This document shows, piece by piece, positions 51,962 through 58,941 of a stretch of DNA of 64,000 nucleotides (position 1 is the first letter of the stretch; each line of letters begins with the position of its first letter). The translations under genes and the position numbers were made by a program. Source of the DNA: Gammaproteobacteria bacterium (GTDB taxonomy: Bacteria; Pseudomonadota; Gammaproteobacteria; Steroidobacterales; Steroidobacteraceae); the NCBI GenBank assembly GCA_025358295.1, contig JANYJY010000062.1, positions 42,623-106,622 on the forward strand. Direction: 5' to 3'. A model generated the notes under the pieces. That model saw nothing but the letters and a program-made list of their open reading frames with translations, searched no databases and was not told where the DNA came from.

Positions 51962-54337
51962 ATGCAACAACAGCTTGGCGCCGCCGTGCTCGACGCGGAA
52001 CTCGCGCGAAAGATAGATGCTTACTGGCGCGCGGCAAATTATTTGGCCGTGGGCCAGATTTATCTTTGGGATAACCCGCTCATGCGCAAGCCCCTGACGA
52101 TTGCGCACGTCAAACCCCTGCTGCTCGGACACTGGGGCACCACTCCGGGACAGAATTTCATCTACACGCATTTGAATCGTATCATCAAGAAATATGACGT
52201 CGACATGATCTACATGTCGGGCCCTGGACACGGTGGCCCCGCGGTGGTCGGCAGCACCTATCTGGAAGGGACTTACAGCGAAATTTATTCGAACGTGAGT
52301 CGGGACGAAGCCGGCTTGAAACGGTTGTTCACACAGTTCTCCTTCCCCGGCGGTATTCCGAGTCATGCCTCGGCCGAGTGTCCGGGCTCCATTCACGAGG
52401 GCGGCGAACTCGGCTATTCGTTGAGCCACGCCTTCGGCGCCGTATTCGACAATCCGACGCTGGTTGTCGCCTGCGTGATCGGCGACGGCGAGGCCGAGAC
52501 GGGGCCGCTGGCAACCGCCTGGCACTCCAATAAATTTTTGAACCCCGCCTGCGACGGTGCGGTGCTGCCGATACTGCACTTGAACGGCTATAAGATCGCC
52601 AACCCGACCATCCTAGCGCGCATCAGCCGCGAGGAACTCGAACAGCTGCTGCGCGGCTATGGTTGGACCCCGTATTTCGTCGAGGGCCATGAGTCCATGC
52701 TCATGCATGAGGCCATGGCAGCGACGCTCGATCGAGTCATCGAACATATCCGACAGATTCAAAACGATGCCCGCAAGCACGGCAACCTTGAGCGACCGCG
52801 CTGGCCGATGATTGTGCTTGCCACTCCCAAGGGCTGGACGGGGCCCACGATGATCGATGGCATCCCTAACGAAGGCACGTTCAGGGCTCATCAGGTGCCG
52901 CTCTCGGACCCTGCGTCGAATCCGGGCCATTTGCGGCAGCTGGAGGATTGGCTGCGAAGCTACCGTCCCGAGGAGCTGTTCGATGCCGACGGGCGGCTGC
53001 GGCAGGAGCTGGCGGATTTGGCGCCCGACGGTGAGCGGCGCATGGGTGCGAATCCCAATGCCAACGGCGGTATGAAGCTGCGGGATTTGCGCATGCCGGA
53101 TTTTACCGAGTACGCGGTGGACATTTCCCAGCCGGGCGTGCGCGGCATCGGCGACACGCGCGTGCTCGGCCGCTTTCTGCGCGATGTACTGAAGCTAAAC
53201 GCGGAGCAGCGCAATTTCCGCCTGTTCGGTCCGGACGAGACCAAGTCGAACGGACTCGAGGCGGTGTTCGAAGTGGCCAATCGGCAATGGCTGGCCGATA
53301 CCGCGGAAAACGACGAATTTCTCGCGCGCAGCGGCCAGGTCATGGAAATGCTGAGCGAGCACCAATGCCAGGGTTGGCTTGAGGGGTATCTGCTCACGGG
53401 ACGGCATGGAGTGTTCAATTGCTATGAAGCGTTCATTCACATCGTCGATTCCATGTTCAATCAGCACGCCAAATGGTTGAAGGTCACCGCCGGCCTCGCA
53501 TGGCGGCGCAAAATCGCCTCGTTGAATTACTTGCTGAGCTCGCATGTGTGGCGCCAGGATCACAATGGCTTCACGCATCAGGATCCAGGCTTCATCGATC
53601 ATGTCGTCAACAAAAAGGCGGAAATCGTCAGGGTCTACCTGCCGCCCGATGCCAACTGCCTGCTTTCAGTGATGGACCATTGTCTGCGCAGCCGCCACTA
53701 CGTCAATGTGGTCGTGGCGGGCAAGCATCCGGCGCCGCAGTGGCTGTCGATGGACGCGGCCGTCAAACACTGCAGCGAGGGCATCGGCATCTGGCAGTGG
53801 GCCAGCAACGATCAGCGTGCCGATCCGGATGTGGTGATGGCCTGCGCCGGCGACGTGCCGACCCTCGAGACTCTGGCGGCGGTCTCCATCCTGCGCAAGG
53901 AATTGCCCGACTTGAAGATCCGTGTGGTCAACGTCGTCGACCTCATGAAGCTGCAGCCTTCCTCGGAACATCCGCATGGCTTGAGCGACGGGGATTTCGA
54001 TTCGTTATTCACGCGGGATAAACCGATCATCTTCGCCTTTCATGGCTATCCCTGGCTGATACACCGCCTGACCTATCGTCGCCGCAATCACGACAACCTG
54101 CATGTGAGGGGTTACAAGGAGGAGGGCACCATCACCACCGCATTCGATATGACGGTGCTCAACGATTTGGATCGCTTTCACTTGGTAATGGACGCCGTCA
54201 GCCGTCTGCCGCAGACAGGCAGTGCGGGCGTCTATCTACAACAGCGGCTGCGGGATAAGTTGATCGAGCACAAGCTCTATATCAACAAGCATGGGTGCGA
54301 CATGCCAGAAATCCGCGATTGGGCCTGGTCGGATTGA
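51962..54337 (+). CDS. xfp: Phosphoketolase (xylulose-5-P/fructose-6-P)
   Basis: Thiamine-diphosphate enzyme cleaving xylulose-5-phosphate to acetyl phosphate and glyceraldehyde-3-phosphate, or fructose-6-phosphate to acetyl phosphate and erythrose-4-phosphate. The 791-residue protein has [69 protein letters not shown], the ThDP motif [21 protein letters not shown] and [17 protein letters not shown] 51962 follows GGGAGGA. With ackA it forms the common two-gene phosphoketolase unit. It converges on aceK with only three bases between stop codons. Confidence 0.97.
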
Positions 54338-54340
54338 GAC

Positions 54341-56035
54341 CTAACGTGCTGCGGCCGGCGGGGGTGCCGACAGCGAACGCCACCACCGTGCCGTTAGAAG
54401 CTCTGCATGGTGCCGCGTGAACACGCCACTCAATGCCGCCGGGATGGACAGGAAGGGCAGCCACTGTTCCGGAAACACGTCGCGCGGACCATAGTGGAAC
54501 CACGGTTCGGCGCTGGTCTCTTCTTCTTCGCAGCTTGCCTGCGGAAGATCGCGGAAAACACAGTCTGAGACCAGGCAGATTTCATCGTAGTCGTAGAAAA
54601 TCACGCGGCCGTGGCTGGTCACGCCGAAATTTTTCAATAGTAGGTCGCCGGGAAATACATTGCTCGCGGCCAGATCGCGCAGCGCGTTGCCATAGTCGAT
54701 GATGGCCGATTCGGCGGCGGCGGGATCGGCCTCGCGCAGGAACAAATTGAGCGGGCGCAGGCGCCGTTCGATGTAACAGTGCTCGACGATCAAGTCCTCG
54801 CCCTCGATCCGACAGCTCTCGGCGGCCTCGTTCAACAGTTCATCCACCAGCGTCGGCATGAACCGCGCGCGCGGCAGCCGCAGGCGCTTGAATTCTTGGG
54901 CATCGACCAGGCGACCGGCGCGGTCGTGACGGAATACGAACTGGTAACGTTCGATGACATCCTCGCGGGTGCTGGTCTTGGGCGCTCCGAAGCGGTCGCG
55001 GATCACCTTGAAGACCAAATCGTGCGATGGAAGGGTGAATACAATCATGACCAATCCGCGTTCGCCGGGAGCGTGCACGAAACTGTCGATGGATTTGTCC
55101 AAATGTCTCTGCAGCGCAAAGTACCGTTCGGTCTTGCCCTGTTTGGCGCGTCCCAGCACCGTGTACAGCTCGTCGATGGATTTGCGCGGCATGAAGGACC
55201 GCAGCAGCGTGATGGCCGCGCTGACCACGGGCAGATCCACGTGAAAATATGAACGTGCGTAACCGAACAGCGATCCCACGTCGGCACGCGACAGCATGAC
55301 GGCGTCGACTTGCACACCTTTGGCCGAATTCGTGAAGGCAAGCACCAGCGGCGTGATCGAGCCGTCGCCGATCAATCTGCCGACGGCGAAGGCATGCATA
55401 CCGCGATAGAACACGGGTTCGATCAATTCGATGGATTCGGGATGTCCGCTGTGGTGCCCCGATTCGAAATAGCGGCCGATCTCGGCGCTGATGCGATGCA
55501 CCGCGGCCTCTGTGTCGCCGATGGCCGCGCCGAAGGGCAGATCCGTGAGAATTTCGCGTACTGCGGTCGGCAGCGAACTGCCCACCCGGTAGACGCGTAT
55601 CGGCACAGCGCCGGAAGCGCGTCCGACACTGGTCGCGCAGAACTCGACTTCCGGGTTGACGCCCACCGTACCGAATAAATCGCGCGTCACCGAATTAAAG
55701 AAAGTGCGGTAGAAGTCGCTGTCCGGACGGCGCGCGACGATGACTTCGTAGGCTCGCTTGATATCCGTCCACAAAGCCACATCGCGATGCTTCGATTGTA
55801 GCTGGCTCGCGATCGCAGCCACGCCTCTTGCCACGCGCAGCTCGTACAGCTCGATGCGGGCTACCGCATCGAGCTGTGCCGTCTGCCAATCCTCGGCGAG
55901 GAAGTTCAGCGCCGCGCGCCGCGTGATGCGGCCGAATTCCTCGTTATAGAGCCGGAAGTGCTCCGAAATCACCGCCGCAAGATCTTTGGCGGTGACGCCG
56001 TCCTTCGTCGCGGCGGAAGTGACGGCGGCACCCAT
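54341..56035 (-). CDS. aceK: Isocitrate dehydrogenase kinase/phosphatase
   Basis: Bifunctional enzyme that phosphorylates and reactivates isocitrate dehydrogenase and so sends isocitrate to the glyoxylate shunt. At 564 residues it has the N-terminal regulatory domain (FRLYNEEFGRITRRAALNF; FYRTFFNSVTRDLFGTVGVNP) and the kinase domain with the nucleotide loop HAPGERGLVMIVFTLPSHDLVFKVI, HRPL-like EHCYIERRLRPLN and the metal-binding FYDYDEICLV. The gene is 12 bases after aceA, as in the ace operons of enteric bacteria, but aceB is missing here. Confidence 0.96.
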   Translation of the reverse strand: MGAAVTSAATKDGVTAKDLAAVISEHFRLYNEEFGRITRRAALNFLAEDWQTAQLDAVARIELYELRVARGVAAIASQLQSKHRDVALWTDIKRAYEVIVARRPDSDFYRTFFNSVTRDLFGTVGVNPEVEFCATSVGRASGAVPIRVYRVGSSLPTAVREILTDLPFGAAIGDTEAAVHRISAEIGRYFESGHHSGHPESIELIEPVFYRGMHAFAVGRLIGDGSITPLVLAFTNSAKGVQVDAVMLSRADVGSLFGYARSYFHVDLPVVSAAITLLRSFMPRKSIDELYTVLGRAKQGKTERYFALQRHLDKSIDSFVHAPGERGLVMIVFTLPSHDLVFKVIRDRFGAPKTSTREDVIERYQFVFRHDRAGRLVDAQEFKRLRLPRARFMPTLVDELLNEAAESCRIEGEDLIVEHCYIERRLRPLNLFLREADPAAAESAIIDYGNALRDLAASNVFPGDLLLKNFGVTSHGRVIFYDYDEICLVSDCVFRDLPQASCEEEETSAEPWFHYGPRDVFPEQWLPFLSIPAALSGVFTRHHAELLTARWWRSLSAPPPAAAR

Positions 56036-56047
56036 GCCGGCCCTGCC

Positions 56048-57328
56048 TTATGCAACCACGCGCTTCGGCGCCGCTTTGTCGGTCGACGTGAACTGCTCGG
56101 TTTCCGTGCTGCCGGCCATGGCGCCGGTGGAGTGGGTGCCCGAACTGATCGCAGTCTGTACGGCATCGAAGTAGCCGGTGCCGACAAAGGATTGATGCTT
56201 CGCGGCCCGATAACCCGCGGCTTCCTGGCTGAATTCGCGCTGCTGCAGCTGCGAGTAGCCGAGCATGCCGTCTGCGTGATATGCCGATGCGAGTTCGAAC
56301 ATCGACAGATTCAATGCGTGCCAGCCGGCCAGCGTGATGAACTGAAAGCGGTATCCCATGGCGGCCAGATCTTCGCGCCATTTTTTCATGGACGACGCGT
56401 CGAGTTTCGCCTGCCAGTTGAACGAGGGCGAGCAATTGTAGGCGAGCAACTTGCCTGGGAATTTGGCATGAATGGCAGTGGCAAAACGCCGTGCCTCGGC
56501 CATATCCGGTTTGGAGGTCTCGCACCAGATCAGGTCAGCATACGGTGCGTAGGACAATCCGCGGTCAATGGCCTGCTCGATGCCGGCCTTGACGTAGAAG
56601 AACCCTTCGCTGGAGCGCTGACCGGTAAGGAAGGGCCTGTCGCGCGGGTCATGGTCGCTGAGCAGCAGGTCGGCCGCGTCGGCGTCGGTGCGCGCAATGA
56701 CCACGGTGGGCACATTCATAACGTCGGCGGCGAGACGCGCTGCGACCAGCTTGTTGATGGCTTCGGCGGTCGAGACCAACACCTTGCCGCCGAGATGGCC
56801 GCATTTCTTCGCGGACGACAATTGATCCTCGAAATGCACGGCGGCCGCGCCGGCCTTGATCAATGCCTTGGTCAATTCGAAGGCATTGAGATTGCCGCCG
56901 AAACCCGCTTCGGCGTCCGCGATGATGGGGACTATCCAATCGATGGCGGTTTTCGCGTCCAAGTGATGGATTTGATCGGTGCGCAGCAACGCGTTATTGA
57001 TGCGCTCAACCATCTTCGGCACCGAATCGACGGGGTACAGACTTTGGTCCGGGTACACCTCGCCGGCCGAATTGCCGTCGCCGGCAACCTGCCATCCCGA
57101 GCAATAGATCGCCTTCAATCCCGATTGCACGCACTGTATAGCCTGGTTGCCGGTCATGCAGCCCAAGCCGGCGATAACGGGCTCGCTGTGCAACTGGCGC
57201 CAGAATTTCTCGGCACCCAGTCTCGCCAGGGAGTGTTCAATGTGTACGGAACCGCGCAGACGAGCCACATCGGCCGTGCTGTAGGGGCGCTGGATGCCGG
57301 ACCATCGATCTATCGCTTTATCACTCAA
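56048..57328 (-). CDS. aceA: Isocitrate lyase
   Basis: Cleaves isocitrate to glyoxylate and succinate. The 426-residue protein shows the short proteobacterial form: [47 protein letters not shown], the catalytic loop [37 protein letters not shown] and [11 protein letters not shown]. Start is TTG 57328, with AGGAGA seven bases upstream. It is divergent from a RamB-like regulator; a perfect palindrome in the 122-base intergenic region overlaps its predicted -35. The partner malate synthase gene is not in the window. Confidence 0.97.
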
Positions 57329-57411
57329 TTCAATTCTCCTGGGGTCAAAAGTACGCGAGCTTGCATCTCGGGATCCGCGCAGTTTAAAGTGTGGGAAGGG
57401 CGGATTTACAC

Positions 57412-57441
57412 ATTAGAAATTTGACAGTGTGAATTTCACAC
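57412..57441. promoter_or_regulatory. aceA promoter overlapped by a perfect 15-bp operator-like palindrome
   Basis: GTGTGAA-T-TTCACAC at 57427-57441 is an exact inverted repeat. On the minus strand TGTGAA (57440-57435) and TCTAAT (57417-57412), 17 bases apart, make a candidate aceA promoter whose -35 lies inside the palindrome. The palindrome ends nine bases before the ATG of the divergent regulator (57451), next to its GGAG. Additional half-site-like words (AAAGTGTGG near 57387, TTTACACATT near 57405) lie to the left. A dimer of the regulator binding here could control both genes. Confidence 0.65.
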
Positions 57442-57450
57442 CGGAGCAGC

Positions 57451-58941
57451 ATGGCAGGATTGATCCGGCAGGGGCATTTTCTAGGGACCAAGCTGCGCTC
57501 GCTGCGGAAGCGCAATGGGTTGACCCTGGATGAACTATCCGCCCGCTGCGTGCAAATCGACGCAGAGGGAGCTCCCTCGGTGTCCTATCTCAGTATGGTG
57601 GAGACCGGCAAACGCATGCCCTCGCCCGATATGCTGGAGATGCTGGCAGGGATCTTCAGCAAGGATGCGCGTTGGTTCTTGGACGAGAACACGGAGGTTG
57701 AAGCGGTCCCGCCGCAGCGTGCAAGGGGCGGCCTCGAGGCCATGCCCTTGGAGCCGGCATTCTTGTTCTCTCATGAGTTGCTGCAGAACGCCCTGCCGGA
57801 ACTGCTGTCGCAGACCGGCACGACGGGGCGGCAATTTGCGCAATTGCTGATTCGCGTCTGGCAGGAAACTCGCCACAACAATTTTCCCGATATCGAGCGC
57901 GCCGCCGAGGAGTGCGGCAAGCGCCAAATGCCGCTCGACCTCGACGACATGATGGCGATTTGCAAACGCCATTCGCTCACCGTGCGATGGTTCGACGGCG
58001 ACGCCCGCAAGCCGAGCGGAGCGTTGGTAAGATCGCAGTTCGAAGCGCCGGGCACGGTGTTGATCAACGAGCGCCTGCGCAATCAGGAGGAGCGGCTGAA
58101 GTACGAACTTGCGTTCTTCATCGGCCACAAGGTGCTGCACAACGGCGATGGCGTAATTTCCCCGCATAGCGCCATTCACGCGGGCGAGGGCGGATCTTCC
58201 GTCTCTCCTGCCGGCATGGGCGCGCAGGATGTGTTGTATGCCTGGCGGGATTTCGAGTGCAGCTTCTTTGCCGGTGCGCTGCTGTGTCCCCGCGTGCCGT
58301 TTCGGCGCTACTTGATTCGCGAGGCACACAGTGTTGCCGCCTGCCACAAGCTCGGCGTCACGCCGGCACTGGTCATGCGCCGCATGACGGCCGTCTCGCC
58401 GTATCGACACTGGCATTTTTTCGACGCCTACCCACCCGGCTATTTGCGCGCCGTGTATCGCGGCAATGGAATCCCGCTACCCTGGGGCAATATGAGTCTG
58501 GTGTCCGACCCCTGTCCGCGCTGGGCGGTTTTTCGGCTGCTGCAATCGACTCCGGCGGCGCCCCCTATGCAGAAGCCAAAGTCGCAGATTTCGGTGATGG
58601 AGGATGGCAAGCGCTCGCGATTGTACTGCTGCCATTCCTTGTTGACGCGCGACGCGCTGGACGAAATGCACGTACTGTCGGTGGGCGTGGATCTGCTACC
58701 GGCGCTCGACGCGCAGGGGTTCGACGGCGAAGCGATGGTCGCTGCGGTCGCCGAATCATGCCGCCGCGGCGGCGGCGACGGCGTGATTCCGGAGCAAGCT
58801 GCCGCCGCCATTCGCGCCGCGTCGCAGGTGCTCAACATCGCGTGGATCGCGGAAGCACTCGACTCACCTGCCAGCGTCATCTGCCCACGCAGTGGCGCGT
58901 GCCCGCGCCAACCGCATGGCTGCGAGGAGGCGGTGGTCTAG
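57451..58941 (+). CDS. RamB-like transcriptional regulator (XRE HTH - ImmA/IrrE-like - DUF2083)
   Basis: A 496-residue regulator with an N-terminal XRE helix-turn-helix (residues 10-75; [45 protein letters not shown]). A middle DUF955/ImmA-IrrE-like region (about 150-310) follows in which the zinc-peptidase HExxH is altered to FFIGHKVLH. The C-terminal DUF2083-type domain ([21 protein letters not shown]) is rich in cysteines ([14 protein letters not shown]). This is the short-chain fatty acyl regulator family of RamB and MccR-like proteins, which control the glyoxylate shunt and related genes in actinobacteria and proteobacteria. Its divergent position to aceA supports that role. Its stop overlaps that of wrbA in the tetranucleotide CTAG. 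Confidence 0.9.

Follow-up and report, generated by a model that had tools for sequence, protein, structure and literature searches.

The closest described systems are the RamB and PrpR regulators of the ScfR group. In P. denitrificans, RamB, a class 2 ScfR, is encoded divergently from the glyoxylate operon (ms-icl) and activates it from an upstream site, which consists of two boxes split by an 18-bp spacer and lies around 82 bp upstream of ms (PMC10370305). In M. tuberculosis, RamB is located next to icl1 and PrpR next to the prp genes, and the operator reads TTTGC(A/G)AA (PMC6765138; PDB 6CZ6, 6CYY, 6CYJ, 6D2S). Here, we analysed a 64,000-nucleotide stretch (the window) of a Steroidobacteraceae genome, in which a helix-turn-helix regulator of the same remote family is likewise encoded divergently from a glyoxylate-shunt gene, aceA. 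Like PrpR/RamB of M. tuberculosis, this regulator shares the predicted fold and presents a CPxW cysteine (a candidate Fe-S ligand) together with a C-terminal three-cysteine motif, although the latter reads CX5CX5-6C instead of CX2CX4C. The DNA site also differs from both described types, since the intergenic region carries an array of TTNACA half-sites placed every 7 bp, around 76 bp upstream of aceA. The features of the locus are listed in Table 1.

Table 1. Features of the aceA-regulator locus, given as window positions.
Feature	Positions	Strand	Basis
Regulator, 496 residues: XRE helix-turn-helix, degenerate M78/IrrE-like middle part and DUF3612; ScfR-like	57451..58941	+	PF12268 5e-60, PrpR fold, hhalign
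Candidate [4Fe4S] cysteines of the regulator: C355, C478, C484, C491
Putative operator array, five TTNACA half-sites	57404..57440	+	R1 match, 69-locus logo, period/dyad analysis
Half-site h1, TACACA, nearest aceA, within TTTACACATT	57407..57412	+	logo, period/dyads
Half-site h2, TAGAAA on + (GAAA conserved), weakest half-site match	57414..57419	-	logo, period/dyads
Half-site h3, TTGACA; TTNACA in 68/69 loci	57421..57426	+	logo, period/dyads
Half-site h4, TGTGAA on +; TGTNAA in 64/69 loci	57428..57433	-	logo, period/dyads
Half-site h5, TTCACA; TTNACA in 56/69 loci	57435..57440	+	logo, period/dyads
Palindrome GTGTGAATTTCACAC (GTGTGAA and TTCACAC around a T)	57427..57441	.	sequence
Predicted aceA -10 box TAAACT, 20 bp from h1	57381..57386	-	comparison across 69 loci
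Predicted aceA ribosome-binding site AGGAG, 7 nt before TTG	57336..57340	-	sequence
aceA, isocitrate lyase, TTG start at 57328	56048..57328	-	NF011645 E 2.2e-210, above cut-off; PF00463
aceK, isocitrate dehydrogenase kinase/phosphatase, downstream of aceA	54341..56035	-	NF002804 E 1e-182

The regulator is a full member of the DUF3612 family (PF12268; 203 bits against a cut-off of 25), as were 31 out of 31 homologues. Unlike P. denitrificans RamB, it did not match the Pfam ScfR domain (PF09856). No NCBIfam model matched it either, and PF09856 gave one match only among the 31 homologues (E 0.21). Its remote relationship was revealed at the level of profile and fold. When its AlphaFold model (pLDDT 76, pTM 0.69) was searched with Foldseek, the top six hits were all M. 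tuberculosis PrpR chains (E 1.5e-9 to 1.1e-8, TMt 0.61-0.67), followed by IrrE/PprI; for PrpR, too, IrrE was the only structure reported as similar (PMC6765138). In addition, hhalign against a set of canonical ScfRs, collected here and verified as PrpR relatives, aligned 348 columns from the helix-turn-helix to the GAF-like domain with a probability of 98.8 and an E-value of 9.1e-17. PrpR was not found by a sequence-only search of the PDB with the regulator; only fold and profile-profile comparison found it. By profile and predicted fold, the regulator is a divergent relative of the ScfRs PrpR and RamB, and the description of the protein as RamB-like in a first-pass annotation of this DNA proved well chosen, though it belongs to DUF3612 and lacks the Pfam ScfR domain. 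Canonical ScfRs were not found in the 40 relatives searched, and we found no description of DUF3612 regulators in the open literature.

The cysteines of the regulator are candidate ligands of an Fe-S cluster, which the protein may hold. The PrpR cluster ligand Cys363 (CPxW) aligned with Cys355, the CPxW cysteine was present in 76 out of 77 homologues and the C-terminal motif was found in all 77 complete homologues. The adenine-stacking His319 of PrpR aligned with the invariant Arg310 of the regulator, and its ligand may therefore differ; the other CoA-pocket positions of PrpR (Phe155 and the basic residues) could not be confidently aligned. Short-chain acyl-CoA as the ligand is thus a guess.

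The first-pass annotation had proposed that GTGTGAATTTCACAC was an operator common to aceA and the regulator, placed nine bases before the regulator ATG. The position was correct (the nine bases are 57442-57450). Taken alone, a perfect 7-1-7 palindrome is unremarkable and constitutes weak evidence: the window contained nine of them, and 99 when spacers of 0-10 were allowed. An exact search gave a single copy of GTGTGAATTTCACAC in the window and none elsewhere in the 4.02-Mb genome, and with two mismatches three genome sites were found, about the same number as with a reversed-pattern control and two of them within long ORFs. As the intergenic setting is what gives the palindrome its weight, conservation was tested. 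The exact 7-1-7 palindrome was retained in one out of 69 non-redundant loci and its outer pair was not conserved, and it was consequently rejected as a stand-alone operator. GTGTGAATTTCACAC corresponded to half-sites h4 and h5 plus one additional pair, the last dyad of the array, and what exceeds chance is this larger element of 37 bp and not the palindrome itself.

Within the array, the direction of the half-sites flips every 7 bp, giving a tandem period of 14 bp; direct-repeat similarity peaked at lags of 14 and 28, and dyads were centred at 57420, 57427 and 57434. The consensus preceding the regulator in the loci of 30 relatives was ATTTACACAATAGAAATTTCACAATGTGAATTTCACA. The logo of the 69 non-redundant loci showed 19 columns above 1.8 bits, without internal gaps or indels and with flanks close to zero, and mean pairwise identity reached 80% in the array versus 31% and 27% in the flanks. 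Related half-sites nearer to aceA had also been proposed: TTTACACATT is conserved and contains h1, while AAAGTGTGG was rejected as an extra half-site, its columns varying in relatives and overlapping the edge of the conserved -10 toward aceA.

The distribution of the array was then followed with R1, a sequence-only model built from the relatives' loci upstream of the regulator. R1 found a single site in the host genome (57401-57442, E = 4.7e-13), which was also the sole site in the window. Regulator homologues were present in 36 out of 60 relatives (in two of them as fragments only), the array preceded the regulator in the 30 relatives' loci examined, and nearly all regulator-bearing genomes showed one strong site, upstream of the regulator. 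Relatives without the regulator had no full-array match, the best partial ones covering only 18-23 positions with E-values of 0.0017 or weaker. R1 also matched, on the regulator strand, the 80 named DUF3612 loci from Steroidobacteraceae, other Gammaproteobacteria and Betaproteobacteria, some of which share contigs with the R1 training set; two remote DUF3612 loci, obtained by a Pfam search of the class, carried the array as well (E 6e-7 and 2e-7). Loci L113, L100 and L118 are Steroidobacteraceae-like, yet their contigs bear titles such as Klebsiella pneumoniae, Bordetella parapertussis and Janthinobacterium lividum, and these MAG names look wrong. The first-pass annotation had set conservation in the aceA/ramB regions of relatives as its own refutation test, and the array turned out to be very strongly conserved (80/80 loci, 80% identity). 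The idea of a shared operator was thus sustained for the 37-bp array and not for the single palindrome as its unit (1/69). The annotation was largely right and named the regulator type well, and it drew the operator too small.

Canonical ScfR loci presented a different picture. None of 20 had the array, the TTNACA dyad occurred in 0/17 of them versus 75/80 DUF3612 loci, and TTTGC(A/G)AA boxes followed the reverse trend (6/17 versus 2/80). TTTGCAAA was not present in the aceA-regulator intergenic region; a copy at 57959-57966 was discarded, being inside the regulator ORF and in a number equal to the chance expectation. A search for the motif before other genes (aceB, acs, prp), which had also been suggested, found no genome-wide regulon and no array other than the single one in the host genome, and the genus of the host showed no array at its malate synthase G genes.

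The gene divergent from the regulator varied among lineages. The genus of the window had aceA-aceK, and most other Gammaproteobacteria had aceB-aceA (aceB encoding malate synthase A), in some cases together with aceK. In Betaproteobacteria, the divergent gene was an ApbA/ketopantoate-reductase-like ORF (PF02558, weak), and the array was again present, along with a TATGAT-like -10 (L146, L147, L150-L152, L155, L157, L158, L168 and L169). Arrays were also found in trans. Genome G056 carried three arrays: one at the regulator, read directly in the sequence, one that lay 5 kb from the regulator and preceded an isocitrate lyase of another class (NF005074), and one before a malate-synthase-G-like small ORF; G042 also had an array before such an ORF, and in G315 the regulator, the array, a malate-synthase-G-like ORF and a second isocitrate lyase class (NF005074 type) were found together. 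The small ORFs of G042 (L058, 896-1423) and G056 (L073, 1618-2076) were similar to malate synthase G over its N-terminal portion (NF006511/NF002825, E about 1e-10 to 1e-13), and that of G315 (L195, 4279-4707) was judged by eye to be N-terminal-like. These small ORFs stood alone behind the array or before an isocitrate lyase. The gap between array and start codon was about 76-79 bp in the window (about 76 to aceA) and at three trans sites, and the orientation of the array to its target was the same as at aceA. This near-constant placement makes it much likelier that the array is a regulatory site of the glyoxylate shunt than that it belongs to the regulator gene only. Since the loci were found via the regulator, only the few trans sites show the array travelling with targets away from it.

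Two further observations concern the gene content of the host. Malate synthase (PF01274) was not found in the host genome (G000), nor in G004 and G020. Given that 20 out of 23 members of the genus carry one, an assembly gap is the more likely cause in G000, and absence as a biological trait was rejected. On the other side of aceK, a convergent ORF (51962-54337), phosphoketolase-like by sequence reading, ends 4 bp from it and would put an acetyl-phosphate-forming enzyme beside the glyoxylate genes.

The region between the array and aceA showed a second conserved signal. A TAnnnT hexamer lay 19-20 bp beyond h1, toward the target gene, in 63 out of 69 loci, versus 0-2 out of 69 in comparable windows. 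In contrast to this fixed -10, the best -35 at a spacing of 16-18 bp matched only 2-4 of 6 bases, mostly 3 of 6, and a consensus scan of the region found no standard promoter. The comparison-backed -10 would put the -35 near 57404-57410, which makes the proposal that the palindrome covers the aceA -35 doubtful. The centre of the h1/h2 dyad falls at about -39 from the inferred aceA start. Class II activator-dependent promoters were taken as those with an operator centred near -41.5, a good -10 and a poor -35; the combination seen here, a constant distance to a good -10, no -35 and an operator centre at around -39 to -60, would fit an activator-dependent promoter. At the other end, the distance between the array and the beginning of the regulator match ranged from -1 to 100 bp and was mostly less than 35 bp; such variation would be compatible with autorepression.

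Taken as a whole, these sequence features make it probable that the array is the operator of the divergent DUF3612 ScfR-type regulator, which would activate aceA-aceK and repress its own gene. Dimers of the protein, or a PrpR-like tetramer, would occupy the alternating TTNACA half-sites and sit just upstream of the aceA -10, at the place where a -35 would otherwise be. Activation of aceA-aceK (aceB-aceA in relatives) may respond to a central-carbon metabolite that signals growth on acetate or fatty acids. As the array stops between a few and some tens of bases short of the regulator start codon, binding would at the same time repress the gene of the regulator. Several findings count against this model: the half-sites resemble the -35 consensus, the Betaproteobacterial divergent gene is not a glyoxylate gene and the residues by which PrpR contacts CoA are not clearly conserved in the regulator.

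The first of these findings leads to the main alternative, namely that the DUF3612 protein represses both genes, with the array covering the aceA promoter and the regulator start until a ligand releases it. A minus-strand promoter can indeed be read inside the array, with h4 as a TTGACA-like -35 (57428-57433, at least 5 matches in 64/69 loci) and a TATAAT-like -10 hexamer at 57405-57410 (at least 4 matches in 58/69 loci), exactly 17 bp apart, and because it can be drawn we only infer the sign of the regulation. A palindrome across a promoter and beside a start codon is classic repressor geometry, and for MtRamB a role as repressor on dextrose has been considered the likelier one (PMC6765138). 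Yet these promoter hexamers coincide with half-sites, so that the operator itself explains their conservation, and the independent TAnnnT at fixed distance outside the array (63/69) would, on this reading, have no reason to exist. Repression of both genes is therefore unlikely in our judgement. We regard as clearly less probable still that another factor recognising TGTGA/TCACA, for instance of the CRP/FNR type, binds the array and simply has the DUF3612 gene among its targets. TTCACA/TGTGAA superficially resembles CRP half-sites, but a global regulator would have many sites and most relatives have one array per genome, tied to the DUF3612 gene. Moreover, the CRP palindrome spans 22 bp, which dyads of 13 bp every 7 bp do not fit. 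A functionless palindrome that arose by chance would agree with the nine such palindromes in the window and the unconserved outer pair; the strongly conserved columns of the surrounding element, set between flanks with almost no information, make this reading negligible, and a chance origin of the whole element is refuted by the 80/80 loci, the logo, and the geometry and identity.

Altogether, judging from sequence comparison, the array and the DUF3612 protein appear to represent a new type of operator and a hitherto undescribed branch of ScfR-like proteins; the protein, outside the ScfR family as strictly defined by Pfam, probably works like RamB and PrpR. More tentatively, and with slightly less than even confidence, DUF3612 could be a sister branch of the ScfRs in Gamma- and Betaproteobacteria with its own TTNACA/7-bp code, an altered pocket and a retained Fe-S site, locally activating the glyoxylate-shunt enzymes that a given lineage happens to use; its signal may not be a short-chain acyl-CoA. 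DUF3612 would thereby gain a testable role, operator and regulon: it would control the glyoxylate shunt locally in proteobacteria without canonical ScfRs. Two isocitrate lyase classes, malate synthase A and a malate-synthase-G-like ORF have been swapped beside an operator that stayed with the regulator, so that a single cultured relative would be enough for an easy test of the mechanism.
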